A stretch of 64,000 bases of DNA. Origin: Desulfocarbo indianensis. GTDB lineage: Bacteria; Desulfobacterota; Desulfarculia; Desulfarculales; Desulfarculaceae. The notes beneath the pieces were generated by a model, which saw nothing but the letters and a program-made list of their open reading frames with translations, did not search any database and was not told the DNA's origin. Position numbers and translations under genes: made by a program. Position 1 is the first letter of the stretch. Every line of letters starts with the position of its first letter. Of the stretch, positions 6,486 through 35,899 are shown in pieces. Where the stretch lies: positions 62,001-126,000 of the forward strand of contig LBMP01000006.1 in the NCBI GenBank assembly GCA_001184205.1, read 5' to 3'.

Positions 6486-6591
6486 AATAGACCCGCCACG
6501 GCTTGCGCGGAACGGCTATCGGGCAACTCCCCTTGAGTTGTACCCGTAAACGGGTCTCTTCAGGGGTGATCAAGTAAGACGGGTGCAATCC

Positions 6592-6624
6592 CCCCTGGTC
6601 CTTTTAGGACCAGGGGTTTTTTTT
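6592..6624 (+). terminator. Terminator of the B12 riboswitch leader
   Basis: CCCCTGGTCC and GGACCAGGGG form a perfect 10-bp stem with a short TTTTA-type loop, followed by eight T residues. It stands between the riboswitch and the receptor gene, so it is the expected OFF-state terminator. Confidence 0.9.
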
Positions 6625-6750
6625 ATTGGTAGCCCCGGAGCCTGCGCGAAATCTAAGAAGCTGCGGCCTGTTGGTAACGGAAGGAAGCTGGTTATTTTCG
6701 GATTCACAAAGGAGAACAGCACGAGAACGCGGGCCATCAGATTTTTCTGC

Positions 6751-8688: not shown

Positions 8689-8811
8689 TCGATAGATAAA
8701 AAGTAAGTTACTTCCCGGTTTGACCAAGCAACATTGAGGAAGGCGGTCATTGGCGGATAAGGTGGCCGTCTTCCTCTTTGCGCCAGTTCCCATTAACGGA
8801 AAGAACGGAAC

Positions 8812-11800: not shown

Positions 11801-12242
11801 GGGAGGCCTCGTACCGGGTCTTCAGCTGTAAGCCCGGTACTTACGGGGCCGGGGTCTGCAAGGCCATCGACGCCAAGGCCTGGAAGACCCGCGATGATTT
11901 GGGAGAGGTCTTTGTCACCTTTCATCCATGCGCGCCCATGGCTTCAAAGGGGCGGGCGACCTTTCGCGCAGCGTTGATCTGGCCTTTCACTGGGATGCCA
12001 CCAGCATGGTGATCGATGACTGGATGTATGAGGAACTGGCCAACAGGTTCGCCTTTGATCGCGACATGCAACAGTGGCTGATGGAAGTGAATCCCTACGC
12101 CCTGCACAACATAGCCGAGAGGCTGTTGGAGGCCGTCAACCGGGACATGTGGCAGACGGACCCGGAGACCCGGCAAAAACTGTAGGCCCTCTTCCTGGAA
12201 ACCGAAGGCGCTATCAAGGATTCGGTGGACGAGGGGCGCTAA
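8812..12242 (+). pseudogene. cobN: CobN-type cobaltochelatase large subunit, disrupted
   Basis: Frame 1 encodes about 1040 residues of CobN/ChlH (for example the family core MHIGCHGSLEWLPGNSVALS, NIYPYIINNPSEGTQ and YIPPGGSGNPTRG). At about 11925-11935, after GEVFVT, the frame breaks. Homology resumes in another frame at 11928 with MRAHGFKGAGDLSRSVDLAF and runs to DPETRQKL, an in-frame TAG (12183-12185), then ALFLETEGAIKDSVDEGR and TAA at 12240. In intact CobN roughly 100 residues lie between the two joined segments, so a deletion plus frameshift has removed part of the C-terminal domain. CobN inserts Co into the corrin ring with ChlI/ChlD-type partners, which are present on the opposite strand. 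As read, the product would lack its C-terminus. Confidence 0.85.
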
Positions 12243-12275
12243 CCACACCGGGCAGGCACTGAGCGGGGCAAGCGG

Positions 12276-13300
12276 ATGAGAAACCTTTCGCCGACTTTCG
12301 CGGGATGCGCGCTACTGAGCATATTGCTCGGTCTGATTCTCATGGGAGCCAGTCCGGCCCGGCCAAAAGCGAGCCAGGACGGCGTCCCCAAACCTCAAAC
12401 CATGAAATCCTGGACCGACGATCTGGGACGCACCCGCCAGGTGCGCTGGCCGCCCCGTAAAATCGTGGTCATCGGCGGGTCGCGCTCGTGCGTGGAAATG
12501 GTCTGCGCTTTGGGCAAGGTGGACATGATCATGGCCAGGGCGGAATAGAGCATCTGGCCGCCGGCTTTGATGAAAGTCCCCCATATAGGAAGGCATCCCC
12601 ATATCAACTTGGAACTTTTCAGTTTCAGCAGCACATCGATCGAATGGAGGCCATGGGATTGCCGGTGTTGGTATCGGAACCAAGGGAGCTGGCGGACATT
12701 CCCAAGTCGATCCGTGAAATGGGTTCGCTGCTGGATTGCCCCGGCAGGGCGGAGGCGCTTACCGCCTATGTAGACCGATTCCTGAACCTGCTGGATAGGC
12801 GACTCAAAGGCTTGCAGCAGGATGAGCGGCCCAGGGTGTTCATGGGGCGGGGCCACCAGATATATTATCCCTCCTTTTCCAAGGGGCAGCGCTGCGTGGT
12901 GGAATGGGCCGGCGGGCGCAACATCGCCAACCAGCTTCATTCAAGGATTCATCCCCTGACGCCCGAATGGCTGGTGGAGCAAAAACCGGACTTTTTGGTG
13001 CTCACGCCCAACCGGCGGATGTGGGGCTTCCGGGTCCCCAGCAAAAAGGAGATGCAATACTGTTGGGACGAGGTGTTTCACCGGCCGGGGGTGAGCATCT
13101 TGCACCCATCCCAACAAGACAGGGTGCAACTCATGGATGCCCGGCTCGGTTGGGGCCTGAGATCCTTTATCGGGGCGCTGTATCTGGCCAAAAAATTCCA
13201 CCCAAATCTCTTCAGCGATATCGATCCCGCCGAGGTTCACCGGGACTTTCTCCAGCGGTTTTTCAAACTGGAACTGCAAGGGGCTTACGTATACCCATGA
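12276..13300 (+). pseudogene. BtuF-like periplasmic corrinoid/metal-chelate binding protein, disrupted
   Basis: The gene starts with a signal peptide (MRNLSPTFAGCALLSILLG...) and the SBP_bac_8/BtuF motif KIVVIGGSRSCVEMVCALG. The frame then hits TAG at 12546-12548 inside MIMARAE-(stop)-SIWPPAL. Homology continues in the same frame to NLELF (about 12620) and then in another frame from QQHIDRMEAMGLPVL to the TGA at 13298-13300 (ends AYVYP). A nonsense change plus a small frameshifting deletion thus inactivate it. It would have delivered the ligand to BtuC, whose ATG overlaps this gene's stop (ATGA). Sequencing error could explain one lesion but hardly both. Confidence 0.8.
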
Positions 13301-14358
13301 TCGTTCCAGAGGAGAATCACAACAGCCTCGGCGCTCCGGCGGCCGCCAAACTCTTGACCTTGTTGGGGCTGGGACTAGCCCTGGTGCTGCTGGCGCTTAT
13401 CGCCTCATCCATGGGCATGGCCGACGTGGGGCCCAAAACCGTGGCCATGTGCCTGGCCGGCCTTGCCTGGCCTGACTGCATGCCGCCCGCCGATATCGCC
13501 AGGCTGGTGTTTGATCTGCGCCTGCCCCGCGTTTGGCTGGCCGTGGCGGCCGGCATGGGGCTGGCAATGAGCGGCGTGGCGGTGCAGGGGGTTCTGATGA
13601 ATCCCCTGGTCAGCCCGTTTATCCTGGGGGTTGCCCCGGGCGCCGCTTTTGGCGCGGCCTTGGCCATGGTGTTGGGCATCGATCTGGCCGGCTTCGGCCA
13701 TTATCTGGTGGTGGGCAACGCCTTTGTCACCGCCACCCTGGCTATGTTGTTGGCCTACGGCATTGCCCATGTAAAACGATCCTCCCGCGAAACCATAATC
13801 CTGGCGGGCATAGCGATCGGCTATATTTTTTCGGCCCTGGTTTCCGTCCTGAAATACATCTCGAACGAGGACGCGCTGCACAACCTGGTCTTTTGGCTGA
13901 TGGGCAGTCTGTGGGGGGCCTCCATCGGCAGCGTGGCCTTTATCCTGCCCCTCTTGCTGGTTTGCCTCACGGCCCTGCTTTACCTCTCCTGGGACCTCAA
14001 CATCATGAGCGCGGGGGACGAGGTGGCCACCAGCCTGGGAGTAAGGGTGAAAGCCGTGCGCCTTGCCGTGCTGCTGCTGAGCACCCTTACCACCGCGGCG
14101 GTGATTTCCTTCACGGGCACCATCGGTTTCGTGGGCCTGGTGGCCCCGCACATGGCCAGGATGATGGTGGGGGCGGACCATCGCTGGCTATTCCCGGCGG
14201 CCACCCTGCTCGGAGGCCTGTTGCTGCTCGGGGCCGACACCTTGGGGCGGGTGGCGCTCTGGCCGGTGGAGGTGCCGGTGGGCATCACCACCGCCCTTTT
14301 GGGCGGCCCGTTTTTTGTTCGCTTGCTGTGGCGCAGAAATCGGGATTGGTGGCAATGA
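13297..14358 (+). CDS. btuC: BtuC-type ABC transporter permease (FecCD family)
   Basis: 353 aa with about 9-10 hydrophobic membrane segments and the FecCD/BtuC family motifs: RLPRVWLAVAAGMGLAMSGVAVQG, NPLVSPFILGVAPGAAFGA, and GTIGFVGLVAPHMARMMVG near the ATPase-coupling region. It forms the inner-membrane channel for corrinoid or siderophore import. Its ATG overlaps the stop of the binding-protein gene, and its own TGA overlaps the ATG of btuD, so the three form one coupled operon. It is intact, but both partners are broken in this window, so the transporter is unlikely to work as read. Confidence 0.9.
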   Translation: MIVPEENHNSLGAPAAAKLLTLLGLGLALVLLALIASSMGMADVGPKTVAMCLAGLAWPDCMPPADIARLVFDLRLPRVWLAVAAGMGLAMSGVAVQGVLMNPLVSPFILGVAPGAAFGAALAMVLGIDLAGFGHYLVVGNAFVTATLAMLLAYGIAHVKRSSRETIILAGIAIGYIFSALVSVLKYISNEDALHNLVFWLMGSLWGASIGSVAFILPLLLVCLTALLYLSWDLNIMSAGDEVATSLGVRVKAVRLAVLLLSTLTTAAVISFTGTIGFVGLVAPHMARMMVGADHRWLFPAATLLGGLLLLGADTLGRVALWPVEVPVGITTALLGGPFFVRLLWRRNRDWWQ

Positions 14359-15019
14359 CCCTGACAGTTCGCGAATTGAGTTTTTCCTACAAGGACCGCG
14401 TGGTGTTGCATGACCTGGGCCTGCAGGTGATGCCGGGCTCCCTGGTCTGCCTGGTGGGGCCCAACGGTTCGGGAAAAAGCACCTTGTTGCGTTGTTTGGA
14501 CCGCATCCTGTGGCCCAGCCGCGGCGATATCCTGGTGGGGGGCGCCAGCATAAAAAGTTTGCGTCCCCGTGAGCTTGCCCGCCGCATTTGCTATATGCCC
14601 CAAAACCACCCCCTGAATTTTCCCCTGACCGTGGTCGAGGTGGTAACGATGGGCCGGAGACCTCATTTGCATTTCAGGCCAAGCGACTCTGACCGCCAGG
14701 CGGTGCTGTGGGCCTTGTCCATGCTCGGACTCAGCGGTTTGGCAAGGCGTTATTTTGACGAGTTGAGCGGGGGGGGGGGGGACAAAAAGCGCTTTTAGCC
14801 AGAGTCCTGGCCCAGGAAGCGCCCATCATGCTTCTGGACGAACCCACCAGCAATTTGGACATGCATTATCGGCTGGAAGTGCTGGAATTGCTGCACCGCC
14901 TGAAGCAGGTGAATCGGTTGGCCATCGTCATCGCCATCCACGACCTGAACATGGCCGCCCGCTTTGCCGACGAATTGATAATGCTGGATCAAGGGCGCAT
15001 AATTGCCCAGGGGCCGCCC
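14355..15019 (+). pseudogene. btuD: BtuD-type ABC ATPase, frameshifted and truncated
   Basis: From ATG 14355 the frame has Walker A GPNGSGKST and Q-loop YMPQNH, and reaches ELSGG, where a run of 13 G (14769-14781) throws it into a stop (GGGGDKKRF). The next frame continues perfectly: GQKALLARVLAQEAPIMLLDEPTSNLD with Walker B, then the H-loop VIAIHDLNMAA, up to LDQGRIIAQGPP at about 15019. Eleven or fourteen G would restore the frame. After 15019 the normal C-terminus is missing, and the DNA becomes the antisense of a radical SAM gene. A homopolymer sequencing error could cause the first defect but not the second. Confidence 0.85.
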
Positions 15020-15567
15020 GGCCCTGCGCTGCCAGGCAATACGGCCGATATTCCTTTGGGTCGCGGCCCAGGGTCTGCTCCACTTCGCGCACTTTAAGCG
15101 GAGGGAAGCGACGCTGGTTGACAAAGGCCAAGGCGGTAAGCATGTCGGGGAGCATGTCCGCAATTTGCCCGGCGGTGGGTTGCAGTTGGGCCTCGCCCGC
15201 GCGATAGATCGTTGACGCGCGGCGGGCCGTCCAGGGAGAGTCCCAACCCCACGCCATGCTCCGCCAAAAAATTCAGCTTGGGCGCATCAAGCAGCAGCCC
15301 GTTGGTTTGCAGGGCAAAACGATAACGCCCGCCATATTTTTTCAGCAAAAACCGAATCAGGTCGAAATTCAGCAGGGGCTCGCCACCGGCCAGCTCCACC
15401 AGAGTCCTGCCCGGAGCCCGGTCCAGCAACTCCAGGGCCTCGCTGGCGACTTCCTCTGTCATATGGACGCCGCGGCCATGGGCCGCGGCATAGCAATATA
15501 AACAGGCCAGGTTGCAGCGGTTGGTGACCATCAACACCAGAAACCGTATGTCTGGCGAGGATGGCAA
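15020..15567 (-). pseudogene. Radical SAM protein, frameshifted and cut at its 3' end
   Basis: A TTG at 15567, directly after the chlI stop, opens a frame with RFLVLMVTNRCNLACLYCYA (CxxxCxxC cluster motif), LVELAGGEPLLNF and LSLDGPPRVND. At about 15190-15215 the frame shifts, and homology continues as LQPTAGQIADMLPDMLTALA ... PLKVREVEQTL ... YRPYCLAAQGRA, where it ends against the btuD remnant. The C-terminal cluster region is lost. It lay downstream of chlI in the B12-riboswitch operon, so a role with corrinoid or cobalt metabolism is possible, but the subfamily is not recognisable. Confidence 0.75.
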
Positions 15568-16602
15568 TCAAGCCAATCCAAGGGGAGCAGCCTTTTGCAC
15601 TATTTGCTCAAATGGCTGGCGGCGCATGCGGTGGGGCAGGGCCAGGGTGGCGGCCCGTTCCACGTCCTTACGATTGACCGCGTCCCGCTGCTGCCAGGCG
15701 GCCAGGGTCTTGGCCGTCTTCAGGCATATTATGTCGGCGCGATGGCCGTCCACTCCTGCCTGCAGGCACATTTCGGCGATGCGCAGTTTGAGTTCATGCT
15801 CGATCCGCACCTTGGGCAACAACTCCCTGGCCTGGCTGATCTGCTCGGTTATGTCCTTTGAATCATCCATCCATAACGATCCAAAAGTTTGCGGGTCTTC
15901 ATCAAAGGAAGCGCGCCGATCCATGACCAGCACCCGATCCTCGGCCTCGCGGACTCCCTCGACCTGCACGCACAGTCCAAAACGGTCCAAAAGTTGGGGG
16001 CGCAGCTCCCCTTCCTCGGGGTTCATGGTGCCCACCAGGGTGAAACGGGCCGGGTGGCTGAAGGAAACGCCCTCGCGTTCCACGGTGTTGATCCCCATGG
16101 CCGCGGAATCCAGCAATACGTCCACCACGTGGTCATCCAGGAGATTGACCTCGTCCACATATAAAATGCCGCGGTGAGCCGAGGCCAAGATGCCCGGCTC
16201 AAAGTACTTCTCACCCTCTTTCAACGCCCGCTCCAGATCCATGGAGCCCACCACGCGGTCTTCGGTGGCCCCCACGGGCAGCTCCACCACCCGCACCTTG
16301 CGCTCTTCCATGGGCGGCGGCTCTCCGGCCATGACCATTGCGCGGCAGGAGGCGCGGGGACAGTCGCGGCAGGTATGGCCGCCGGTTTCCGCCGGATCGA
16401 GCTGAAAAGGACACTTGGCTGCGACCTGAATCATGGGCAGTATCGCGGCCAGGGCCCGGGCGGCGGTTGATTTTCCGGTGCCTTTTTCGCCGCGAATGAG
16501 CACCCCGGAAAGGCCGGGACTGACTACGTTGAGGATCAGGGCCAGCTTCATATCGTCTTGGCCCACAATGGCGGTAAAGGGATAAACGGTTTGAGGGGAC
16601 AC
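15568..16602 (-). CDS. ChlI/BchI-type chelatase AAA+ ATPase
   Basis: 344 aa. The GTG start at 16602 has AAAAGGAG 7-8 nt upstream and overlaps the stop of the preceding chlID-type gene (TAGTG). Motifs are Walker [10 protein letters not shown] (38-46), a four-cysteine insert (C64, C78, C81, C86), Walker B ILYVDEVN (146-153), [17 protein letters not shown] and the sensor regions. This is the I subunit of Mg/Co chelatases, which powers metal insertion by CobN/ChlH. Under a B12 riboswitch and opposite cobN, a cobaltochelatase role is most likely. It appears intact. The hydrolytic partner cobN in the window is broken, so it may serve another CobN copy. Confidence 0.9.
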
Positions 16603-18608
16603 TAGCTGCTCCTTTTGACCATAGTCACCAAATCCTTGGCCTTGAGTTTTTCTATCTGGAAATATTGCCCATCCAGAGCCTGGCACAGCCGCCGCGACAG
16701 GCCGAGCCTTGCGGTGTGGGCGGGTTCGGTATCCACCACCACGTATTTCACCCTGCTTTCAACCGCAAGCAGTCTGGCCATGGCCATGGCCTCCTCGTGG
16801 GGAGGCATCTGCTGGCCCAGGCCCGCGTTGGCCTTGCCGTCGGTGAGGATAAACACGATGGGCCTGGCGGTGGGTTCTTTGCGCAGATGCGCACCAAGCA
16901 CGCGATGGGCTTGGGCCAGGGCCGCGCTCAAGGGCGTCCTGCCGCCCACGGGCAGCTCTTTCAACTGACGGGCGGCCATTTCAATGGACGAGGTGGGCGC
17001 CAGGCAGAGCTCGGCCTCGCGGCCCCGGAAGCTGATCATGGCCACCTTGTCGCGTTTTTGATAGGCGTCCATCAGCAGGGAAAGGATGGCCCCCTTGGTG
17101 GCCACCATGCGGGCCTGGGCCCCCATGGAGCCGCTGCCGTCCACCACAAACAGCAGGAAGTCTCCTACCCGCTTTTCGCGCACCTTGCAGCGGATGTCGG
17201 ATTTATTGATGCAAACGGCCAGGCCGGCTCGCGCCCGCCGGCGAAGCTGGTATGGCGCGGCGGCCCTGAGGGTGGCGTCCAGGGCAAGGTCGTCGCCTGG
17301 GGCCATGGTGCTTTTTATGTAGCGGCCCTGTTTCTGGGCCGTGCGCGTGGCCGAACGGCGGCCGGAGCCGCGCCGCAGCGCGCGATCCTTGCCCTGCTCC
17401 AGACTGCGAACCTTAAAGGTCTCGCCGACCCGGAAAACCTGTTCGCCGCCCTCGCCCCCTTGTTCCGGCGGCCCCTGGGAGGGAGGCAGGGGCAGATCGT
17501 AAGGCTCGTCCATGTCTCCGGCCGATTCCTCCCGGGGCGGTGGATCGGCGCTGGGCCGGTCATGCTGTTGTCCTTCTTCCCGCGGCTGGTCTGCTTGGTC
17601 ATCCTCCCCTGGCTGGTCGTTGTCCGGCGGGGGCGGGGGAGGAGGAGGCGAAGCGTCGCGGCTGCGGTGGGTCAGGGCCATCCCCGCCACCCGTTGGATG
17701 TGCTCCACGGTCACTTGGGCGCCGGCCTCGTAGGCGCACAACGCCTTGGCCGCGCGCTGGATCGCCAAATCGGCACGATGTCCGGCCACATGGTTTTCCA
17801 GGCACAGTTGGCTGATAAAGCTTTTCAGGGGAGTAGGCAGGTAGACCTCGCGCAGACGTTGCCTGGCTCGGGTCACGGCCCGGGCCACCTCGGCGTCGGC
17901 ATCGGCATAGAGCTTGGCAAAGCCTGCTGGATCATGGTCAAAGGCTTCGCGCCGATCCATGAGAAGCACCCGGTCAGCGGGTTGAGGTTCGCCGCTCACT
18001 TGCACGCAGAGTCCGAAGCGATCCAGGAGTTGGGGCCGCAACTCGCCCTCTTCCGGGTTCATGGTGCCCACCAGCACGAACTCGGACGGGTGAGACAGAG
18101 AAACGCCCTCACGCTCGACGGTGCTGTATCCCGCCGCCGCCGCGTCCAGGATCACGTCGACCAGATGGTCATCAAGCAGGTTGACTTCATCAATATATAA
18201 AAATCCACGGTTGGCCCTGGCCAGCAGGCCCAGGGACAGAACGCGCCCACCCTGTTTCACGGCTTTGCTGAAATCCAGTCCCCCCAGCACCATGTCCTCG
18301 GTGGCGTTCAGCGGTAAATCCACCACGGGTGTGACTCGGGTGTGTGGCGAGGGCTTATGCCCCCGGCCGGCTGCTTGGGCGCAATCCGAACACAAACGGG
18401 AAACATCGTCGGGATCGCAGCCAAAAGGACAACCCGGCCAGATTGCCTGCATGGGCAACAAGGCGGCCAAGGACCTTACCGTCGTGGATTTTGCCGTGCC
18501 TTTTTCACCGCGAATGAGCACCCCGCCCACCCCGGGGTCTATGGCATTGAGCAGCAAGGCCAGCTTCATTTGCTCCTGGCCCACAATGGCGGAAAAAGGG
18601 TAGACCAT
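16602..18608 (-). CDS. ChlI-ChlD fusion chelatase subunit with VWA domain
   Basis: 668 aa. Residues 1-310 form a second AAA+ ChlI-like module (Walker [10 protein letters not shown], 34-42; [13 protein letters not shown]). A proline-rich and acidic linker follows (about 315-385, runs of P and D/E/Q). The C-terminus is a von Willebrand A domain with the MIDAS motif [10 protein letters not shown] and [10 protein letters not shown]. Fused ChlID proteins of this kind replace CobS/CobT or BchI/BchD beside CobN in many anaerobes. The ATG at 18608 follows a B12 riboswitch and terminator, so expression is B12-repressed. It is followed without a gap by the second ChlI gene and the radical SAM gene. Confidence 0.9.
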
Positions 18609-18667: not shown

Positions 18668-18737
18668 GACGTCCCTACGCATCAGCCATGACTTTTGGCG
18701 GCAGCCTCCCGGTCCACGGGGAAGACGCGCACGATTT

Positions 18738-18896
18738 GACAGACAGCAGGTATTCTGGCTTACGGATCAACCCGTGGGCCGCGCCTTCCCGGCTCATGGC
18801 CAGTGGCATTGGCGGACACGGTCCCCGATCACAGCGGCGGGCCCGCTCCCGTTTTGCACGGGATTCCCTGCGCAACAATCGTTTTGAACCCCTTAT
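18738..18896 (-). promoter_or_regulatory. Cobalamin (B12) riboswitch, minus strand
   Basis: The minus strand shows AGGGAATCCCGTGCAAAACG, CCCGCCGCTGTGATCGG, ATGCCACTGGCC, GGGAAGGCGCGGCCC and GTAAGCCAGAATACCTGC, the ordered conserved blocks of a B12 riboswitch. It controls the chlID-chlI-radical SAM unit. Together with the riboswitch at 6285 it places the whole convergent block under B12 repression. Confidence 0.93.
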
Positions 18897-18960
18897 TTAC
18901 TAACAGCAATGATGGTCATCGTCAATTCTATTTATGAAACCCTCGCGCGGTGATCGGTTC

Positions 18961-20081: not shown

Positions 20082-20957
20082 CTACATTCCATAATATTTT
20101 GAACTAAATCCAACAGAAAGTGGTCCGCCATCAAATGAACAAGATACACCGATTTTGAGCCTTCTTTTGTGATCAGAATAATGGTGATAGTGAGTCTGTT
20201 TATTTACAATATCTAATTCTGATGGATTTATACTAAGGCAGCCGAGAATTGGCTCTGAATCAAATTCTTGATTTTGCATACAAGGCGATGTTTTATTGAG
20301 CTTTACTTCAACGTAGTTGATAAAATTACCTTCTGCCTCTAAGAGCATGCTACAATCGTCGGAATCAATAATTATATTGCCCGCTTCGTTTGGTGTGCCA
20401 TTAACCGCTTTCGCTGCACCGGACAACGTCATGCCAATGTACTGAAAAGGTCGGTGAAAAGGTTTTGATAATATAAAGAATAATTGATCTGTTGCTTTAT
20501 CAAGTGCATGACCTAGGGTGGTCGCTTTTGGTTTTCCGTTCAAGGCAGATTTATTAAAAACAATACCCATGGCATTGATCAATGACTCAAATGAAGTAGA
20601 ATACTTAGAATCATCTGTAAAGTCAGCATACTTCTTACCTAATAAGAAACCTGGCAGGTCACACTTTTCGAGCATCAATGGTAGTACCTTTATTTTCTTA
20701 CCACTAATTTCTAAGGTCATTGCAACATCTATCTCTTTTTGTACCCACTTAGAATGGACAGAGTTGGGAGATAAGATTACGGCCAGATAATCGACGCTAT
20801 CAATGCCTTCCCTTATTTTTTCAATGAGACTATCTCCGATTTTTAATTCAGCCTCATCAATCCACACCGTTATTCCATGACAATCTAGGTCATGTGCTAG
20901 TTTGTGTGCAAAATCCTTATCATTGATGTTATGACTTAAAAATATAGTTGGGCTCAT
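20082..20957 (-). CDS. TIR-domain protein, candidate NAD-consuming defence effector
   Basis: 291 aa. Residues 1-135 form a TIR domain: TIFLSHNINDKDFAHKLA, GITVWIDEAELKIGDSL, VILSPNSVHSKWVQKEIDVAM and VLPLML. The Glu in WVQKE (E75) sits where TIR NADases carry their catalytic glutamate. Residues 140-291 are a separate beta-rich domain I do not recognise, ending LKIGVSCSFDGGPLSVGFSS. Bacterial TIR proteins of this size often deplete NAD or make a signal during phage infection, with the C-terminal domain as sensor. The low GC and the GIY-YIG neighbour on the same strand suggest a laterally acquired defence module. The function is not proven. Confidence 0.85.
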   Translation of the reverse strand: MSPTIFLSHNINDKDFAHKLAHDLDCHGITVWIDEAELKIGDSLIEKIREGIDSVDYLAVILSPNSVHSKWVQKEIDVAMTLEISGKKIKVLPLMLEKCDLPGFLLGKKYADFTDDSKYSTSFESLINAMGIVFNKSALNGKPKATTLGHALDKATDQLFFILSKPFHRPFQYIGMTLSGAAKAVNGTPNEAGNIIIDSDDCSMLLEAEGNFINYVEVKLNKTSPCMQNQEFDSEPILGCLSINPSELDIVNKQTHYHHYSDHKRRLKIGVSCSFDGGPLSVGFSSKYYGM

Positions 20958-21506: not shown

Positions 21507-22382
21507 TCACTTGAGGAAATCCCCCACGTAGATCAAATGCTCAAAGGGGAGCTTCTCGCCCTTGGTCTTCTCCAGAATGGTGTCCAAGGAGGCGACAAGC
21601 ACTTTCTCGCGGTCCTGATAGCCAGCGTAGGACACAATGGCTATGGGGGTGTCGCCGGGGTAGCTCTCTTTAAGCTGGGCCACCACCTCGGGCAGATTCA
21701 TGCGCATGGTGAAAAAGACCATGGTGGACTGGGTTTCGCCCAGCTTGGCCAGGGTGTCCTTGCCCTTATAGCCCTTGCTGGTGGTCATGGCCGCGGTGAG
21801 TATCACCGAGTGGCTGACAAAGCCCTTGTTGGGTCCCCGCTGCAGGGCCGCGTTGGCGGCGTTAAAGCAGGAAAGGCCCGGCACCACCTCGGGCTTAAGG
21901 TCGGCGAACTCCTGCAGATAGCCGGTGTGCGGCCCATACAGCATGGGATCGCCGCCAGAGACCACGGCCACGGTTTTGCCCGCGGCCACGGCTTCGCGGA
22001 TGATGCGGCGGGTCTCTTCCTGCATGGCCTGGTGCTTATCCGGGGGCATCCGCTTTGGGGGCATCTTATCGCGGCCCCGCTTTTGCAGGCTTTTTTCCAT
22101 GAACAAAAGGTGCCCGGCCTCGTGGAGCTCCTTGCCCTTGAACAGCTCGGCATACTGTTTGAAATCGTGCTTCATGCCGAAAATGATGTCGGCCTGGGTT
22201 AGGACCCTGTGGGCTCGTATGGTCATGTTGTCCAGATCGCCCACGCCGAGCCCAACCAGATATAGCTTGCCCTGGGCGGCTTGCACGTCTTGGGCGCCCC
22301 CGGGCGCGGCGACCATGGCCGCGGCCGCGAGCAGAATCATTAACGCCAGGTAAAAGTGCTTGGTTAGTCTATATTTGCGCAT
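21507..22382 (-). CDS. Exported tetrapyrrole (corrin/porphyrin) methylase-family protein
   Basis: 291 aa. Residues 1-36 are a signal peptide (KHFYLALMILLAAAAMVAAP ... VQA). Residues 38-291 form a tetrapyrrole methylase domain like precorrin methylases: GKLYLVGLGVGDLDNMTIRA, the GGDPMLYG loop (VVSGGDPMLYGPH), VPGLSCFNAA, and VSYAGYQDRE. These enzymes normally use S-adenosylmethionine in the cytosol, so an exported member is odd. It may instead bind or carry a tetrapyrrole. GGGAGG precedes the ATG. It is the last gene of the set beginning at 29580, 36 bp after the STN-type receptor, which suggests it handles the same imported ligand. Confidence 0.85.
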   Translation of the reverse strand: MRKYRLTKHFYLALMILLAAAAMVAAPGGAQDVQAAQGKLYLVGLGVGDLDNMTIRAHRVLTQADIIFGMKHDFKQYAELFKGKELHEAGHLLFMEKSLQKRGRDKMPPKRMPPDKHQAMQEETRRIIREAVAAGKTVAVVSGGDPMLYGPHTGYLQEFADLKPEVVPGLSCFNAANAALQRGPNKGFVSHSVILTAAMTTSKGYKGKDTLAKLGETQSTMVFFTMRMNLPEVVAQLKESYPGDTPIAIVSYAGYQDREKVLVASLDTILEKTKGEKLPFEHLIYVGDFLK

Positions 22383-22417
22383 GTCTATCCTCCCATGCTG
22401 CCAAAGGGAAACTTTCC

Positions 22418-24667
22418 TCAGAATTTGTAGGTGAAGCCCAGGCGCACGTCCAGGCCGGGCTCTTCAACGATGCCGGTGCTGCTGTAAATAGTGGTGTGCT
22501 CGCTGTAGCGCAGGTCAAACAGGTTGTTCACCACCAAATTCAGCGACAAATTGGGAATCTGGCTGGGCTGATAAACTGCCTGGATGTTGTGCACCACGTA
22601 ACCGGGCCGCTCGGGTTCGTCATCGGGCACGTCGGTGAGGCGGAAGACCACGTTCATGGTGTAGCCCAGGGTAACCTGGTCAATGGGCTGCCAACGGTTG
22701 TCCCAAACCAGATGGTCGCCCGAGGCGCCGGCCACCCGGCGGATCACGCCGACCGGGTTGCCGTCTTTGTCCTCCAGACTCACGTGGGTGTAGCTCAGGC
22801 GGCTTTCAAAGTTGGGCAGGCCCCAGGCGACGCGCAGCTCAAAGCCCTCGGATATGAGATCGTCGCCGTTTTTCAGCTCGGTTATGACGCCCCTGCGTCC
22901 CTCGGCCTCGATCCTGTTTTCAATGCGGGTGTTGAAGTAGGTGCCTTCCAGGCGCAGGTGGTCATCTCCCAGAAGCAGGCCTTGCCCCATATAGCGCAGA
23001 CCGCCCTGCACCTGGTTGGAGGTCTCGGGTTCGGTGATGTTGAAAGGAGTGCTGCTGTCGATGCTGGTCATCCACGAACCGGGAATGACGCCGCTGGCCC
23101 GCACGGCCTCGCCATAGCTGGCAAAGGCGGTCAGGCCTTTGAGCAGCTCGTAGGTGGCGCCGATGTTGGGAGAGAACTCGTTTCCGGAGAAGTTGTTGGG
23201 CCCGTAATTGATATCATAGCTGTCCAGGCGGGCTCCAAAGGATATCCCCAGGGCCCCCAGGCTCATACGGTTTTGGAGGTAGAAGCCCAGGTTGCTGGTG
23301 TCGTTTTCCTTTTCCGAGCCGTCGCTCAACTGGCCGGTGCTGGTCTCATCACGGATGTCGGCGCCCAGGGTAAGGCGGTGGGAGGTGGGGCCGAGCTTGA
23401 AAGCGAAGGTGTTGCGCACATCGCCGCCGTATTTGTCGCTGTGGTACTCGGTGGCCCGGGTGTCGTTGGTCACCTTGTTTTCGTTGTAAAAGATGTTGAG
23501 CCTGGCGTCCACCAGGGAGTTCTTGGGCTTGAAGCGGTAGTCGGCGGTGTAGGTATGGCGCTGGATCTCGATGTGATCCGGGTCAAACGAGGTGTCGGCG
23601 GGGTAGCCCATGTCGCTGCCCGTGCTGCCCCAGATGTAGAGTCCCTCGTTCTTGATGCCCTCGGCGCTGAAACGCAGGCTGTGGCCGTTCAGGTCCAGGA
23701 TGCTCACCTTGCCCAGATAAGCCTGGCCTTCCCCATTGGAGTTGGGCACCTCGGGACCGTCGTCGCCCACCTTGTAGTTTTGGCGGTCGTTGCCAGAGTA
23801 GTGAGCCAGGATGCCCACATGTTTGCCCACCACGGCGTAGGCCGAAGCGCCGCCCTTCCAGGATTCATCCACCGAACCGTAGCCGCCGGTGACGGTGGCC
23901 CCCACTTGGCGGTCCTTTAAAAGAAGGTCCTGGGCGTCAGCGGTTTCAAAGACGATGCTGCCGCCCAGGGCTCCAGGGCCGGCGTCCGCTCTGAGCCCGG
24001 TTTGCACCTCCACCCGTTTGAGCAACTCAGTGTCCATGAGGCCTATGTCGCCCATGTGCTGGTGCAGGCTGCGGCCCTGGCTGGCGCCATCAATGCTGAT
24101 ATTAAGGTTGTTGGCCTCCACGCCGCGCAGATAGAGGCGCTGGGTGAAACGGCCGCCGCCGCCAATCACCACCGAGGAGTCGGTGGAGAAGATGTCGGCC
24201 ATGTCCCAGGCCAGGGTGCGGCGCAGGGTTTCGGTGTTGATGCTATGGGTCTCCGGATCTGCTTGCAGGTCCTTTACCGTCATCCCGGGCAGGGCCACCG
24301 CTTTCTGCTGCCCGTCTCCCGCCAGGATTATATGACCTTGACCTTTGTCCTCGGCCTTCAGGCCGGTGCCGGCCAACATTTCGGCCAGGGCCTGGCGTAT
24401 GGTATAGGAACCTGAAATAGCGTTGCTTTTTTTGCCTTGGCTCAACTGGGGGTCATAAGAAAAATGTGTGCCGGACTGGCGGGAAAAGGCGTGCAGGGCC
24501 TCATCCAGGGGGCCGGCGGGTATATCGTAACTGCGGACCGCATCGGCCGGGGATTGGGCCCCGGCCTCCATGGCCCAGCCTCCCGCGCCGACCAGCAACA
24601 AAGCCATCAGCGCGACTCTTGCCCAAAGGCCGGCAAACACTCTCGTTGCATTGATTCTTGATGTCAT
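22418..24667 (-). CDS. TonB-dependent receptor with N-terminal STN (signalling) domain
   Basis: 749 aa. The ATG at 24667 is preceded by GGAGG 7 nt upstream; the adjacent TTG is not needed. After a signal peptide ending EAGAQ, residues about 47-115 are an STN/secretin domain (YDIPAGPLDEALHAFSRQSG ... ALAEMLAGTGL). A plug follows (MADIFSTDSSVVIGGGG, LYLRGVEANNLNISIDGA) and then the barrel ending FTYKF. STN domains of FecA-type transducers signal to an anti-sigma factor, but no FecI/FecR pair is visible here. Plug features resemble heme/hemoglobin or TbpA-like receptors; the ligand is unknown. It is the fifth gene of the minus-strand set, upstream of the exported methylase. Confidence 0.9.
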   Translation of the reverse strand: MTSRINATRVFAGLWARVALMALLLVGAGGWAMEAGAQSPADAVRSYDIPAGPLDEALHAFSRQSGTHFSYDPQLSQGKKSNAISGSYTIRQALAEMLAGTGLKAEDKGQGHIILAGDGQQKAVALPGMTVKDLQADPETHSINTETLRRTLAWDMADIFSTDSSVVIGGGGRFTQRLYLRGVEANNLNISIDGASQGRSLHQHMGDIGLMDTELLKRVEVQTGLRADAGPGALGGSIVFETADAQDLLLKDRQVGATVTGGYGSVDESWKGGASAYAVVGKHVGILAHYSGNDRQNYKVGDDGPEVPNSNGEGQAYLGKVSILDLNGHSLRFSAEGIKNEGLYIWGSTGSDMGYPADTSFDPDHIEIQRHTYTADYRFKPKNSLVDARLNIFYNENKVTNDTRATEYHSDKYGGDVRNTFAFKLGPTSHRLTLGADIRDETSTGQLSDGSEKENDTSNLGFYLQNRMSLGALGISFGARLDSYDINYGPNNFSGNEFSPNIGATYELLKGLTAFASYGEAVRASGVIPGSWMTSIDSSTPFNITEPETSNQVQGGLRYMGQGLLLGDDHLRLEGTYFNTRIENRIEAEGRRGVITELKNGDDLISEGFELRVAWGLPNFESRLSYTHVSLEDKDGNPVGVIRRVAGASGDHLVWDNRWQPIDQVTLGYTMNVVFRLTDVPDDEPERPGYVVHNIQAVYQPSQIPNLSLNLVVNNLFDLRYSEHTTIYSSTGIVEEPGLDVRLGFTYKF

Positions 24668-24848
24668 CAAGCCACCTCCTCTTCTCCTCCTCGGAGCAGA
24701 CGGTAGGTTCTGTTCGTCTGATTGTGATCAACTCTTCCGATTTAGGCGGGCATTGGCAGGCGGTTGAAAAACAGCCTGCCCAGCGGCCCAGGGTCGGCCC
24801 GCCTTAAGCCAATGCTCAAGCCCAAGCGCGGCCGGCCCTGCCGAGACC

Positions 24849-25736
24849 TCAGGGTTTGACGTTGAAGCTGACGCTGGCGGCGTGCATAACCGCGGCGCAT
24901 TTGGCGGCCAGGTGTTTCAAGTCGTTGTTTTTGGACACGTCCTGGCGGTGATAAACGTTGACCACCCACTGTCCCGCCGTGGGGAAGCGGAAGCCGCCCT
25001 TGCCGTTGAAAATTATGGCCGACAACATGAAATGGTCCGGACCGCCGAAAGTGTTGCTGGAGGCCGTGATGTATTCAATGCTCCGGTCCGGCCTGGTGTT
25101 CAATGGCTTGCCCATGAAGAGAACCTTGAAGTCAACCTTGTCGCCCACCCGGACGTTGCAGAGATCGCCGGCAGGCATTATTTCAAGGTCGTGACCCAGC
25201 GCCTTGGGCGCTTGCCAATCCCCCACCTTGAAATAGGCTTTGGCAAAGGACTTGTAAAACATGGACCCCAAAATCTGTTTGGCGTCCTGTACCTGATCCT
25301 TGGATTTGGCGACCCAGCGCTTTTTGCCTTCTTTGTCGAGGAAGATGGTGAAGTAATTGTCCTTGCTGACCACGGCCACCTGATAGGTGCCCGGCTTGCT
25401 TTTGTCGGAGAGGGTTATTTTATTCACCCCCACGTCGCCCTGCTGTAGCGACATGCCGCTGGGCGTGGTCGTGGGGGGCGTTTTTTCGGGGCTGGCCGGC
25501 AGCGCCATGGCGGTCGCCTTGGCGTCGGGATCCACCAGCGAATACGATTCCAGCGTGACGCCTTGTATTATGTCGTCCATGGGCAGGTTGTGACCCCATC
25601 CTATGGATACGAGGGCGTGTCCTGGGGGATGGCTATAGGATTCGTAAAGGTTCAGCCAAAGGGTGTGGGCCGCCGCCGGAGAGGCGGCGACCAGCCAAAA
25701 CAGGGCGGATAGAACCGACAGGGTAAATCTGGACAT
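24849..25736 (-). CDS. DUF4198 periplasmic protein with mature N-terminal histidine
   Basis: 295 aa. The signal peptide is predicted to be cleaved after SPAAA, leaving HTLWLNLYES as the mature start, with further His in SYSHPPGH and WGHN. DUF4198 proteins (NikK-like) are periplasmic nickel/cobalt-related binding proteins in which the new N-terminal His can ligate metal. Later parts hold the beta-sandwich repeats of the family (KPGTYQVAVVSKDNYFTIFL, TAGQWVVNVYHRQD). It sits between the cysteine-rich binding protein and the STN-type receptor, so it may pass metal or a metal chelate across the periplasm. AAAGGAG lies upstream of the ATG. A hairpin (CCCCGAAGC/GCTTCGGGG) separates it from the binding-protein gene. 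Confidence 0.85.
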   Translation of the reverse strand: MSRFTLSVLSALFWLVAASPAAAHTLWLNLYESYSHPPGHALVSIGWGHNLPMDDIIQGVTLESYSLVDPDAKATAMALPASPEKTPPTTTPSGMSLQQGDVGVNKITLSDKSKPGTYQVAVVSKDNYFTIFLDKEGKKRWVAKSKDQVQDAKQILGSMFYKSFAKAYFKVGDWQAPKALGHDLEIMPAGDLCNVRVGDKVDFKVLFMGKPLNTRPDRSIEYITASSNTFGGPDHFMLSAIIFNGKGGFRFPTAGQWVVNVYHRQDVSKNNDLKHLAAKCAAVMHAASVSFNVKP

Positions 25737-25889: not shown

Positions 25890-26846
25890 CTACTTGAGCG
25901 CCCAAAGCCATTTGCCGACTATCTCGGGCCGCTCGATGACGCTGGAGTCGATATAGCGGGGGAGGCTGAACACCGGCACCTTGCCCAATTCCGGCTGGGC
26001 CACGATGGCTTCGGCAAGGGCCTTTTGCACCGCCACCGAATCGCCGGTGATCACTATGGCGTCGGGCTTGGCCTTGGCCAGCCCCGCGAGCTTGCGAATG
26101 GTCCAATGCCCCTTGGCGGGCTCTTTGCCCGCGGGCACCAGGGCCTGGCCCACGTTGGCGCAGCCCAGGGGCTCCAGGATGAATTTGTCCGCGTAGCCTC
26201 CGGGCGCTTCCACCTGGATAAAGGCCTTGCCGGTCTGGGCCTGGTATATCCCCTGCAGGACCACCACCTTTTTGCCCAGTTTTTTCCCGGCGATGGCCTT
26301 ATCCAGCTTTTTCACGGCCTTTTCATACTTGGCCGCCAAGGCCTGGCCCGCTTCCTGTTTGCCCAGGATGGCCGCGGTCTGGGCGATGGCCGGGGCCACC
26401 CCCTGGCTGAAATCCACTATCTTTGCCTCCACCCCCAGCTTCTCAAGCAGGGGCAGGGCCTTCACGGGGTCGGAGTCCGCTTTAAGGATGCAGAAGGGTT
26501 GGGACTTTTCCACGATGGCCAGCTTGATGCCCTTGGCCTTGATGAACTTGGTCAGCGTTTCGGTTTGCCCCGAGGTCAGGCATCCGGGGCAGCGCAGGGG
26601 CTGGGAGACCACCTTGAGCTTGTCGCACATAGGCCACAGGGAGCAGCGAACGTTCATGCCGGTGGGCAGCACCCCCAGGTGAAAGGCGATATCCACCGCC
26701 CGATCGCCGATGATGATCATGTTGCGGGGTTCGATTTTTTGATATTTTTCAGCGGCTAACGCCGGAACGGCCGACAGGGCCAGGGCGGCCAGCATGATGA
26801 CGGCCGAACCCAGGGCCGCTCTAAGGGGATTCATGGTGCGAGACAT
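25890..26846 (-). CDS. BtuF/FecB-like periplasmic binding protein with cysteine cluster
   Basis: 318 aa from ATG 26846 (AAGGAG about 10 nt upstream). After a signal peptide ending PALAAE, the binding-protein fold (NMIIIGDRAVDIAFHLGV ... KLAIVEKS ... KPDAIVITG) is that of vitamin B12/siderophore/metal-binding SBPs. Four cysteines near the N-terminus are unusual: C68, C74 and a CPGC pair at 86-89, plus one in QPFCILK. They could bind metal or a thiol-ligated cofactor. No BtuC/BtuD permease gene accompanies it; its neighbours are receptors, DUF4198 and a small membrane protein. It would capture the ligand brought in by the two receptors. Confidence 0.8.
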   Translation of the reverse strand: MSRTMNPLRAALGSAVIMLAALALSAVPALAAEKYQKIEPRNMIIIGDRAVDIAFHLGVLPTGMNVRCSLWPMCDKLKVVSQPLRCPGCLTSGQTETLTKFIKAKGIKLAIVEKSQPFCILKADSDPVKALPLLEKLGVEAKIVDFSQGVAPAIAQTAAILGKQEAGQALAAKYEKAVKKLDKAIAGKKLGKKVVVLQGIYQAQTGKAFIQVEAPGGYADKFILEPLGCANVGQALVPAGKEPAKGHWTIRKLAGLAKAKPDAIVITGDSVAVQKALAEAIVAQPELGKVPVFSLPRYIDSSVIERPEIVGKWLWALK

Positions 26847-26942
26847 TTGGCAGATACTCCTTGTGATGAACGAACAAACATGTGAAGCGAAACAAACCGG
26901 CGCCGCCTGCCGCCAACCGGCGCGGAGCCAGGGCGGCATTGA

Positions 26943-27491
26943 TCAGCTATCATTCGGGATCAGCTTGGACTCCCTGGCCAGAAGGGTGGCGCCGATGCCG
27001 TAGACAAAGGAAAGGCAGGACAAGAGCAGCAACACCCCGCCCACCACCACCAGGGGCTTGACGCTATCCGCGGCGGCCCGGAACTCCGGACTGCCCGCGG
27101 GATGGCCGGTGGGTATGGCCAACAAGCCGATCAGGTGGAAGCCGATGGCCAGCGCCAGGATTCCCGCCACCTGCAAGGCCAGGTTGCCGCCGCACAGCCA
27201 GGGCCGGTAACGGTGGCCGCCCCTGATTTCTTCGGCCAAAAAGTAGAACACTCCCATGAGAGCGGTGGTCACCCAGCCCACCAGGGAGACATGGGTGTGT
27301 ATTTTGCTGACGAAATAGGCGAAGAATGGCTTGATGTGCTGCGGCTCCAGACCCAGGATCAGGCTGTAGAAATCCTGCAGGGCGAACTTGGTGGGATGCA
27401 TGAGGCCCTCCAGCACGCCCAGCACCAAAAACACCAGCGAGACCAACATGAAGCGCCTGGCGGTCGCCCGGCCCAAAGACATGGGTTTCAT
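26943..27491 (-). CDS. Small multi-span membrane protein resembling heme-copper oxidase subunit I
   Basis: 182 aa from ATG 27491 (AAGGA upstream). About 5 hydrophobic segments are visible. KIHTHVSLVGWVTTALMGVFYFLAEE resembles the His-containing helix of NorB/cbb3-type subunit I, and a second His lies in LAIGFHLIGLL. It is far too short for a full oxidase, so it may be a heme-binding membrane protein. It lies between a receptor and the cysteine-rich binding protein in the same operon, consistent with heme or tetrapyrrole traffic. Family assignment is tentative. Confidence 0.6.
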   Translation of the reverse strand: MKPMSLGRATARRFMLVSLVFLVLGVLEGLMHPTKFALQDFYSLILGLEPQHIKPFFAYFVSKIHTHVSLVGWVTTALMGVFYFLAEEIRGGHRYRPWLCGGNLALQVAGILALAIGFHLIGLLAIPTGHPAGSPEFRAAADSVKPLVVVGGVLLLLSCLSFVYGIGATLLARESKLIPNDS

Positions 27492-27666
27492 TTCTGTTTC
27501 AATCCTTGGTTGTAATGCCGGCGGGTCCTGGTCCGTTTGTTTCAAGGGGCCGCGCCGCGCCGAACTGCGGTTAAGCATTCCTGGGAATCGCGGAAAAGAC
27601 TTCTCCGCCTAGCCGGGAAGCGGGCATAAACCCGCTCCCCGGCAAGTTCCTGGTCAAATACGCGGC

Positions 27667-29580
27667 CTAGTAGGTCCCCTTCAGGCCGCAATAGACAAAG
27701 GCCGGCTGGGTGTATGAATCATCGGGGTTGTCGTCCAGGATGTTCTTCATGCCCGCGTACAATTGCAGGTTGCGGGTAAGGTCCTTGCCCACCCAGAAAT
27801 CCAACAGGGAGTAATCATCCAGGGAATTGCCCGAACCGTCCTCGATGCCGGAATACATGGTGTAGGAGGCCCGCATCCTTAGGCCGAACCGCTGGATGAA
27901 CCATTCCGCGTTGAGGTTGCCTTTGAAATTGGGCTGATTGGCCAACTGGTCGCTGGTTTCCTGGTTCTCGGTGTCCAATAAGCTGGCGCCGGCGCCCAGC
28001 CGCCAGCCGTGGGGCAGACGAAGATTGCCGGTGAATTCCAGGCCCTGGGATTTGGCCTCGGCTATGTTTTCATACTTGTAGGTGGCGCCCTTTTGGGTGG
28101 ATTTTTGCAGCACCGCCTCGATCATTTCATCGATGGTGATGTAAAAATAGGTCAGTTCCAGATCAAGGCCCTTGGCCACGTCCAGGTTCGACTGCAAGCC
28201 GATCTCGTAGGACTCGGAAGTCTCCGGCTTCAACTGGCTGTTGGCCAGGTAGACGTCCTTGCCCCGCCTTTTGTAGGAAGTCACGTAAAGCTCATAAGGC
28301 AATGGAGCCCGGAAGCCGTGTCCATAGGCGCCTTTCAGGCGCAGATACTGGTTGATGGCGAAGCTGGCCGCCAGGCGCGGGCTCCATTCGGAGCCGAACT
28401 CGCTGTGATCATCCACGCGCAGGCCGGCCACCAGGTTCAGGCGCTCGAAGAACAGCATATCCAACTGGCCGAAGCCGGCTTTGTTGCTGGTGTCGAACTC
28501 GGGCGTGAGATTGTCCGAGCCCCTTACGTCGTCGCGGTACTCGGCTCCCAGGGTGGCGGTGGCGAAGTCGCCCAGCTTGGCGCTGAAGCGCCCCTCGTAT
28601 TGGGTGATCTTGTATTTTTCATCGGTCTGGAAATAGGGATCGGTGGTTTCGGGGTCCAGGTCGATGTCGGTTTTATATTCCCCGTGATAGGCCTGGAGCA
28701 TGACCTTGAATCTGTCGGCGAAAGCGCCGTCGTAGCGCAGGAACACCTCGCCGCTGTCGTCCTGGGCGTCGCGCTGGGTGAGCGCGTTCTGGATGTCGCG
28801 CTGTCCCTCGCGTTCGAAGTTGTTGTAATAGCCGCCGAAGCTGATGCTGTTCGTGGGATTGATATCGATGGTCCCCTGGCCCGACACGTATTGCTGCTTG
28901 AGATCGTCGCCGTCGTCCGGGGCCAGGTTGTCATAATCCCAGCCGTCGCGGCTGCGGTAGCTGCCGCCCAAGACAAAGCGGAAGGGGCCGGCGTGGCTGC
29001 CGGCATAGAACTGGGGCAGCACCAGGTTCCCCCCGGATTTCAGATTGGTGCCCACCCTGATATCCGCGTTGGCCAGGGTTTTGTCCTTGGGCGGCTTTAT
29101 GGTGATGATGTTGACGACGCCTCCCACCGCGTCGCTGCCGTACAGGGCCGAGGTCGGCCCCCGCACCACCTCGATGCGCTCGATCATGGTGGTGGGGATC
29201 TGATTGATGTCGCTCACCCCGCGATAGCCCGGGGCCAGGCGTCTGCCGTCGATCAGCACCAGGGTGCGCAGGGAGCCGGTGCCCCGGATGGAGGGTTGCT
29301 GCACCCTGCCGGACTCGGTGCCCACGATCAAGCCAACCGCCTCCTGCAGGGCCTGGGTCACGGAGTCGGCGCCCATCTCCTCTATTTGCGCACGGTCTAT
29401 CACCTGCACGCTGGACGGCACCTGGGTGATGTCCCGCTCCTCCAGGGTGGCGGTAACCACGGTGGGCTGAATTATGGCGGGTTCGATTTCCTCTTTGGTC
29501 TGGAGGGCGGCGCATATGCCCGTGGGCAGAGCGAGCGACAACACCAAGGCCACGATAGGTGTTTTGAACAGGGGGGACAT
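27667..29580 (-). CDS. TonB-dependent receptor (CirA/BtuB-like)
   Basis: 637 aa from ATG 29580. Signal peptide MSPLFKTPIVALVLSLALPTG, TonB-box region VVTATLEERDI, plug PSIRGTGSLRTLVLIDGRRL ... MIERIEVVRGPTSALYGSDAVGGVVNII, then the barrel with LRLKGAYGHGFRAPLPYELY. It is the first gene of the six-gene minus-strand set. A hairpin (GCCGGGGAGCGGG/CCCGCTTCCCGGC type, 27613-27647) follows it and may set expression relative to the downstream genes. The ligand is unknown. Its neighbours suggest a corrinoid-, heme- or metal-chelate-like compound. Confidence 0.9.
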   Translation of the reverse strand: MSPLFKTPIVALVLSLALPTGICAALQTKEEIEPAIIQPTVVTATLEERDITQVPSSVQVIDRAQIEEMGADSVTQALQEAVGLIVGTESGRVQQPSIRGTGSLRTLVLIDGRRLAPGYRGVSDINQIPTTMIERIEVVRGPTSALYGSDAVGGVVNIITIKPPKDKTLANADIRVGTNLKSGGNLVLPQFYAGSHAGPFRFVLGGSYRSRDGWDYDNLAPDDGDDLKQQYVSGQGTIDINPTNSISFGGYYNNFEREGQRDIQNALTQRDAQDDSGEVFLRYDGAFADRFKVMLQAYHGEYKTDIDLDPETTDPYFQTDEKYKITQYEGRFSAKLGDFATATLGAEYRDDVRGSDNLTPEFDTSNKAGFGQLDMLFFERLNLVAGLRVDDHSEFGSEWSPRLAASFAINQYLRLKGAYGHGFRAPLPYELYVTSYKRRGKDVYLANSQLKPETSESYEIGLQSNLDVAKGLDLELTYFYITIDEMIEAVLQKSTQKGATYKYENIAEAKSQGLEFTGNLRLPHGWRLGAGASLLDTENQETSDQLANQPNFKGNLNAEWFIQRFGLRMRASYTMYSGIEDGSGNSLDDYSLLDFWVGKDLTRNLQLYAGMKNILDDNPDDSYTQPAFVYCGLKGTY

Positions 29581-29910
29581 GGTTGATACTCCAATGGATT
29601 TAGTTATGAAGACCAGTAAGGGGCCTCTTGGCTTCGATTCGTAGGTTTTGGTTCGGATGTAGCGAATCTGCATGCGGCGATGGCGAGGATCAGACCATGT
29701 AGGAACTCATTCAAGCGGCAAAGCCGGCCATTTGGGGGCAACCTGGGCCGTAACATTGCTTCCTGACAGGCTTTATACACAGCCATTCTCGAAGTTAGCC
29801 GCACATCAAATAGTTCTATATGACAAATTAAATTTGAAGTCAAATATTTTTGACCAGCGCTCGTGGGTAGCTCGGCCAGCGAAGGCTCTGCCGGGTCTTA
29901 GCGGTATATG

Positions 29911-32912: not shown

Positions 32913-33024
32913 TGACGTTATTACGTGGTGTTTACTGGATGGATAACATAATGACTCGCTGCCTATAAGGCGGCTCAGCAACGCGAGAATATGTAGCTTT
33001 TCACCCGCTAATATGGAGAGTGCC

Positions 33025-35094: not shown

Positions 35095-35152
35095 CACCCG
35101 CCGTCCTGGGGAGGAATTTATCCATAACCTTTGCACAATAGAGGATGCCACC

Positions 35153-35899
35153 ATGGAAACGCCAAGCGTATTGATTGATAGCGCCCGCAGGGCTGAGCTG
35201 AAGAATAATCCGCGCGCCGAGTTCACTCGGGCCATTCAGCAAAAGGATCTGGCCGCCTGCCTTTTGAAAACCGCGGAGATCCATGGGCACTTCTGCCCCG
35301 GCAGCGCCCTGGGAGTCATGGCGTCGGTGTGGGGCCTTTCGCGGCTCTGCCTGGATTCCTCCCTGTCCGACGGGCTGGAGGAGCTGATGGCCATTGTGGA
35401 GATAAACGCCTGCTTCGCAGACGGAGTCCAGGCGGTGTCAGGCTGCACTCTGGGCAACAACGCCTTGGTCTATAGAGACCTTGGCAAGCACGCCGTCACC
35501 TTCACGGTACGCGGCAGCGATACCGGGGTGCGCGTGCGGGTGAGGCCGGACTTTCAGAGCCAAATCAGCCGGGCCGTGCCTGAATTTTATCCTCTCCTGG
35601 AGAAAGTGATTATCAAGCGCGGCGGCGGACCCGAGGCGGCTGCGGCCTTCAAGGCAACCGCGCGCAAGGCGGCCTTTGCCTTGATCGAACTGCCGTTTGA
35701 GCATCTGCTGATAAGCCAGCTCACCACACCTCAGCTTCCGGATTACGCCCCCATCGCCGCCAGCCTTATCTGTCCGGTTTGCGGTGAGCAGGTCATGGCC
35801 AGCAAGGTGGTGAGCGAGGGAGAGGCCAAGGGGCTTTGCTACGCCTGCGCCAAGCAACAGACCTGGCAAGTTGAAGGGCGGGGGATCGTGATCCAATGA
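35153..35899 (+). CDS. FmdE-family protein with C-terminal zinc ribbon
   Basis: 248 aa. The FmdE core is seen as EIHGHFCPGSALGV (44-54), EINACFADGVQAVSGCTLGN (84-102), and the C-terminal zinc ribbon CPVCGE ... LCYACA (203-231). FmdE-like proteins bind metal at the conserved His/Cys; they were named after a gene beside formylmethanofuran dehydrogenase but occur widely in anaerobes near metal and molybdenum genes. Following the FyuA-like receptor by 58 bp, it may receive metal from the imported metallophore. There is no signal peptide, so it acts in the cytosol. GAGGA lies 7 nt before ATG. Confidence 0.88.
   Translation: METPSVLIDSARRAELKNNPRAEFTRAIQQKDLAACLLKTAEIHGHFCPGSALGVMASVWGLSRLCLDSSLSDGLEELMAIVEINACFADGVQAVSGCTLGNNALVYRDLGKHAVTFTVRGSDTGVRVRVRPDFQSQISRAVPEFYPLLEKVIIKRGGGPEAAAAFKATARKAAFALIELPFEHLLISQLTTPQLPDYAPIAASLICPVCGEQVMASKVVSEGEAKGLCYACAKQQTWQVEGRGIVIQ

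Follow-up and report, generated by a model that had tools for sequence, protein, structure and literature searches.

We have found that a 64,000-nucleotide stretch of Desulfocarbo indianensis DNA (the window) encodes a putatively exported protein with the tetrapyrrole-methylase fold, which very likely belongs to a TonB-dependent uptake module for nickel or cobalt chelates. The module is widespread and apparently undescribed, and both export of the protein and its membership in the module are well supported. As a whole, our data are best explained if the protein is a ligand-handling, and most likely methylating, component of this module, a reading to which we assign a probability of roughly 0.42.

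The gene (positions 21507-22382, minus strand) encodes 291 amino acids. Residues 39-269 match the Pfam family TP_methylase (PF00590, E=1.4e-45) over the full length of the domain, at 156 bits against a curated cut-off of 27.8. An AlphaFold2 model computed from an alignment with 58 relatives has a pLDDT of 90.1, and its best Foldseek matches are CobM (3ndc) and CbiF (1cbf). The SGGDPMLYGP loop (residues 142-151; 21930-21959, minus strand), which is the SAM-binding loop of the fold, is conserved in relatives, and a second segment of the SAM pocket, PGLSCFNAANAA (residues 168-179; 21846-21881, minus strand), contains the family signature FNAANAA. The first-pass annotation was correct in describing a full methylase domain with its GGDPMLYG loop. 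The protein falls under every NCBIfam equivalog cut-off, and these cut-offs rule out a function as CbiF or SUMT; with 102 bits against the CbiF/CobM cut-off of 260, it is therefore not a precorrin-4 methyltransferase. No terminator-like site with a T-run was found directly after the gene.

By inspection, the N-terminus of the protein, MRKYRLTKHFYLALMILLAAAAMVAAPGGAQDVQA, resembles a classic Sec signal without a twin-arginine motif (residues 1-35; 22278-22382, minus strand), with cleavage predicted after VQA35 or GGA30. The start is credible because a Shine-Dalgarno sequence, GGAGG (22389-22393, minus strand), lies 6 nt before the ATG, and because a hydrophobic leader is kept in homologues, whose leaders are unrelated in sequence. 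The leader is not a chance feature. A rule for leaders (a hydrophobic core, upstream K/R and a start codon) was applied to 93 family genes (foreign loci) and was passed by 68; of the 25 that failed, most either have a leader that can be recognized by eye or are incomplete or wrongly parsed. Of the family genes, 11 clearly have no leader (nine are single-domain relatives, and the other two are FmdE-linked), and the leader is also absent from all six cytosolic PF00590 proteins of the D. indianensis genome. Several tandem forms have lipobox-like leaders (e.g. VIGCATH in L096 and SIAGCAGP in L089), a single protein (L125) joins the secreted nickel-binding DUF4198 to a methylase domain, and methylase domains are also fused to exported proteins bearing CxxCH c-haem motifs. 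These lipoprotein signals and fusions are independent pointers to export. Judging from sequence, the window protein almost certainly resides in the periplasm; the export proposed in the first-pass annotation is thus borne out, and the true start very probably does not lie past the signal peptide, since GGAGG precedes the ATG of the leader.

The methylase gene is part of an operon on the minus strand. Directly upstream of it is a TonB-dependent receptor with an N-terminal STN domain (22418-24670, start possibly at 24640; Pfam STN, Plug and barrel), and the same receptor-methylase pair occurs at two other loci (L157 and L049). A DUF4198 protein (24849-25736; Pfam E=8e-31), a FecB/BtuF-class periplasmic binding protein (25890-26939, start possibly at 26846; Pfam Peripla_BP_2), a small membrane protein weakly similar to COX1 (26943-27578; under the Pfam COX1 cut-off) and a TonB-dependent receptor nearest to a B12 receptor model (27667-29673; NCBIfam TIGR01779, 230 bits, under the cut-off of 600) are also encoded. 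The mature DUF4198 protein is predicted to begin at His24 (cleavage between AAA and HTLW), and this N-terminal histidine would occupy the nickel-ligand position of the family. The receptors in the window contain no in-frame TGA. Two cobalamin riboswitches lie outside the operon, one ahead of a cluster of TonB receptor, CobN, binding protein and FecCD genes (6282-6494, plus strand; Rfam RF00174, 101 bits) and one ahead of ChlD/ChlI-type chelatase genes (18728-18919, minus strand; RF00174, 97.5 bits). The gene cluster at 6583-18608 that is under these riboswitches also includes an ATPase gene, which seems to be split into 14328-14798 and 14828-15097, and a short radical SAM gene at 15094. The chelatase cluster is separated from the methylase operon by a gene for a TIR-domain protein (20082-20957, minus strand), possibly a defence gene. 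At 33013-35899 (plus strand) a TonB receptor is followed by an FmdE protein, and exported FmdE-like proteins occur near methylase loci (c16; L017, 2699-3730).

The D. indianensis genome encodes 13 PF00590 domains, six of them cytosolic and seven in five exported genes, namely the window copy, a second single-domain copy (C1:441321), two tandem two-domain copies (C2 and C111) and a divergent copy (C1:1298288). Further exported copies are present in relatives at the level of the order, some with the domain after molybdopterin-oxidoreductase-like sequence and a CxxCH motif. Such exported fusions of an Oxidored_molyb-like sequence, a CxxCH motif and a methylase domain (L171, L172, L173, L174 and L176) adjoin TonB receptors and often a permease as well. 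A scan of genome contigs gave 79 loci with relatives in Desulfobacterota, Chromatiales, Thauera, Marinobacter, Halomonas, Vibrio, Campylobacterota, Planctomycetes and other taxa, with single, tandem, lipoprotein-like, DUF4198-fused and CxxCH-protein-fused architectures. Cable bacteria carry the module (L100 and L107). A methylase match (E<=1e-22) was present in 36 of 394 genomes of the phylum, and a plasmid search for relatives found none.

The gene order that recurs at these loci consists of a TonB receptor, the exported methylase, often DUF4198, an amino-acid permease of the APC type, and sometimes NikL and CbiMQO. The receptor adjoins the methylase at most proteobacterial loci, the permease gene often overlaps the methylase gene by 4 bp, and the partners are constant beside single, tandem and CxxCH-fused methylase forms. 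TonB receptors and DUF4198, whose co-occurrence with the methylase had been raised in the first-pass annotation, recur as partners across loci and architectures. Permease orthologues occur in 28 of the 36 methylase genomes and in 29 of the 358 others (Fisher p=4e-20, a value that overstates independence, as the genomes are related), and the two genes are no more than 3 kb apart in 20 of the 28 genomes having both. By locus, an APC permease accompanies 44 of 58 exported non-planctomycete relatives and none of the nine leaderless ones (Fisher p=2e-5, which overstates independence in the same way), a comparison that rests on few events, as the leaderless forms may go back to no more than one to three separate losses of the signal peptide. 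These forms nest among the exported ones in our tree, of which only the nesting was used because its root is not meaningful. None of the nine genomes with a leaderless relative has a permease orthologue anywhere, and genomes with the exported form often have one even where it is unlinked. The leaderless relative in Janthinobacterium and Duganella has an ABC importer of the nickel/oligopeptide type next to it instead. The window operon contains no permease; the one orthologue of the genome (C2:39096-40424) lies about 10 kb from a tandem methylase copy. The protein most closely related to the window protein comes from Dethiosulfatarculus, and there the permease follows the methylase. Planctomycete exported relatives have no permease orthologue, so that the permease is not always needed. 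In Oligella urethralis (L056) the receptor gene beside the methylase was predicted in two parts, and the genome yielded no orthologue of the permease. A Vibrio importer beside L085 was considered as a siderophore importer, which NCBIfam did not support; it resembles exporter-type ABC half-transporters.

The gene context is one of nickel and cobalt. According to PMC12537917, DUF4198 is a secreted nickel-binding protein in which the mature N-terminal histidine is a ligand. DUF4198, NikL or CbiM is present in many operons of relatives, and one locus (L094) has a CbiMQO operon with the methylase; DUF4198 is the only NikKLMQO-type partner in the window operon. NikR-type palindromes (7-N13-7), in agreement with the consensus published in PMC545781, lie directly before six to seven of 12 planctomycete operons, one of them without mismatch. 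Matches to this consensus over all loci equalled the shuffled background in total, and only the planctomycete positions are informative; no NikR-type box was found in the window, and the other non-planctomycete loci were at chance level. A cobalamin riboswitch precedes a receptor and tandem methylase both on C111 of this genome and in Dethiosulfatarculus. Together, DUF4198, NikL, CbiMQO, the NikR-type boxes and the cobalamin riboswitches point to the uptake of nickel/cobalt chelates, and nickel/cobalt acquisition is the best reading of the gene context.

Most motifs of the SAM pocket are conserved. G144 (100%) and D145 (97-100%) are kept in exported and signal-peptide-less relatives alike, and G144, D145, P168, G169, S171, A253 and G254 all reach 88-100% in the two groups. 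The window protein retains the GDP loop together with PGxS and AG; the proline of GPGD is replaced (V47), as it is lost across the single-domain proteobacterial group to which the protein belongs. We take the GPGD, GDPxxY/F, PGxS/T and AG motifs to be SAM contacts, and the GPGD proline is presumably such a contact in CysG. The substrate-facing residues are unlike those of SUMT, the arginine of GDPxxFGR being absent. The GDP loop and the motifs PGxS and AG are nearly invariant, equally so with or without a signal peptide, which suits a SAM ligand. The first-pass annotation had suggested that the protein binds or sorts an imported tetrapyrrole rather than methylating it. The loss of the GPGD proline speaks for this suggestion, but the retained SAM motifs and a context of nickel/cobalt chelates make it doubtful.

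We hypothesize that the window protein is the periplasmic ligand-handling part of TonB-dependent nickel/cobalt-chelate uptake. The receptor would carry the metal chelate across the outer membrane, and the exported methylase-fold protein would hold it in its cleft. Most likely, the chelate would then be methylated with SAM, so that the metal could pass to a periplasmic binder such as DUF4198. The APC permease, which is of the exchanger-rich L-type class, would supply SAM and remove the spent donor, or else import the stripped ligand. The probability that the exported methylase is still catalytic is somewhat short of an even chance. That the permease is a SAM exchanger seems rather unlikely, and the complete combination of a soluble periplasmic SAM methyltransferase with a dedicated APC-type SAM exchanger, methylating an imported metallophore in order to free nickel or cobalt, is unlikely. 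A leaderless form can reach SAM and an exported form would need a supply; the absence of the permease from leaderless genomes is as expected if the permease serves the protein in the periplasm. The leaderless relatives of Janthinobacterium and Duganella, with an ABC importer and without the permease, support a methylase that works wherever the chelate arrives. Several points argue against this hypothesis. We know of no free SAM pool in the periplasm, and a protein already folded around SAM should not be able to pass through Sec, in contrast to Tat. The replaced GPGD proline, the lack of a permease in the planctomycete operons and in the window operon, and the possibly few independent losses of the signal peptide weigh on the same side.

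Alternatively, the methylase fold may have been reused as a non-catalytic periplasmic binder that holds the imported metal chelate and passes the metal to DUF4198. The chelate would possibly be a tetrapyrrole or a chelator with SAM-derived groups, and the permease would import an amino-acid-like chelator. Such a carrier is a serious contender, nearly as likely as a methylase. It would account for export to a compartment in which no source of SAM is known, for planctomycete operons that have the methylase, DUF4198 and CbiMQO yet no permease, for the lost proline, and for the tandem and fused architectures; the periplasmic CbiK of the same genome shows that periplasmic tetrapyrrole handling is possible. 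It is harder to reconcile with SAM-pocket motifs conserved as in signal-peptide-less relatives, which reach cytosolic SAM, and a cytosolic, permease-less form of a pure periplasmic carrier is hard to explain. Between the two, we lean slightly towards a periplasmic methylase that modifies the ligand and is served by the permease.

A role as periplasmic tetrapyrrole carrier, with corrinoids or haem as the imported cargo in place of nickel/cobalt chelates, is improbable. The NikR-type boxes, NikL, CbiM and nickel-binding DUF4198 of many operons argue against such a cargo, as do substrate-facing residues unlike those of SUMT, even though CobM/CbiF is the nearest fold, haem-receptor models give the best scores for the single-type receptors (though under the cut-off), and a cobalamin riboswitch is found ahead of one methylase copy as well as next to the window operon. 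More improbable still is a leader that is a signal anchor or a mis-annotated start, with the domain an ordinary cytosolic methylase of the corrin pathway. The domain and its pocket match those of the usual enzymes and a few relatives genuinely lack a leader, but we dismissed a cytosolic start or anchor on the good ribosome-binding site at the ATG of the leader, the lipoprotein signals, and the DUF4198 and CxxCH fusions among relatives. The positive N-terminus, which predicts the chain to be outside, the separate B12-type set of cytosolic methylases in the same genome and scores under all equivalog cut-offs also count against it.

To our knowledge, SAM-dependent methylation is regarded as intracellular. 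The module would represent either periplasmic methyl chemistry with its own donor supply or a methylase fold turned metal-chelate carrier. It leads to predictions on nickel/cobalt acquisition by sulfate reducers, purple sulfur bacteria and planctomycetes, and it places the recurrent APC permease and selenoprotein TonB receptors in context. In the open-access literature we found no description of signal-peptide tetrapyrrole methylases, nor of their association with TonB and nickel, and neither methylase nor methyltransferase occurs in a paper on nickel in cable bacteria.

Nickel-binding DUF4198 proteins and selenoprotein TonB receptors of the FCYXU type (PMC12013277, PMC13188914) are already known. 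Receptors beside several exported methylases match the selenoprotein TonB family or have an in-frame TGA; this family is one of receptors and not of methylases, and PMC12013277 does not discuss gene neighbours. On C1 of this genome, a TonB receptor (L017, 6092-8155, plus strand) has an in-frame TGA within a selenoprotein motif of the PCPU type, SYRLPCP*DYYWW, and is followed by an exported methylase. In-frame TGA codons also occur in L062, L066, L070, L071, L113, L114 and L125. A frameshift reading of split TonB genes was replaced by in-frame TGA, SelB and tRNA-Sec being encoded in the genome. Like the window protein, DUF4198 (PMC12537917) and NikK/NikL of NikMQO (PMC545781) are exported and occur in the same operons, with one direct methylase fusion; their fold is unrelated, and the available text of these two papers contains no methylase-fold partner.

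Known CbiF/CobM enzymes (1cbf, 3ndc, 4e16) share with the window protein the whole fold (TM-score ~0.82 on the target), the GDP loop, the PGxS segment and the C-terminal motifs. The window protein differs in its predicted export, in an identity of only ~24% and in its FNAANAA and GDPxxYGP signatures, and its family is tied to metal uptake rather than corrin synthesis. Desulfovibrio has a periplasmic cobalt chelatase, CbiK, which had been cited as a precedent in the first-pass annotation. The precedent holds, as D. indianensis itself encodes a CbiK homologue with a signal peptide near FecCD transport genes (L164). CbiK resembles the window protein in that a tetrapyrrole-enzyme family is sent to the periplasm, but it is a chelatase that needs no SAM and has a different fold.
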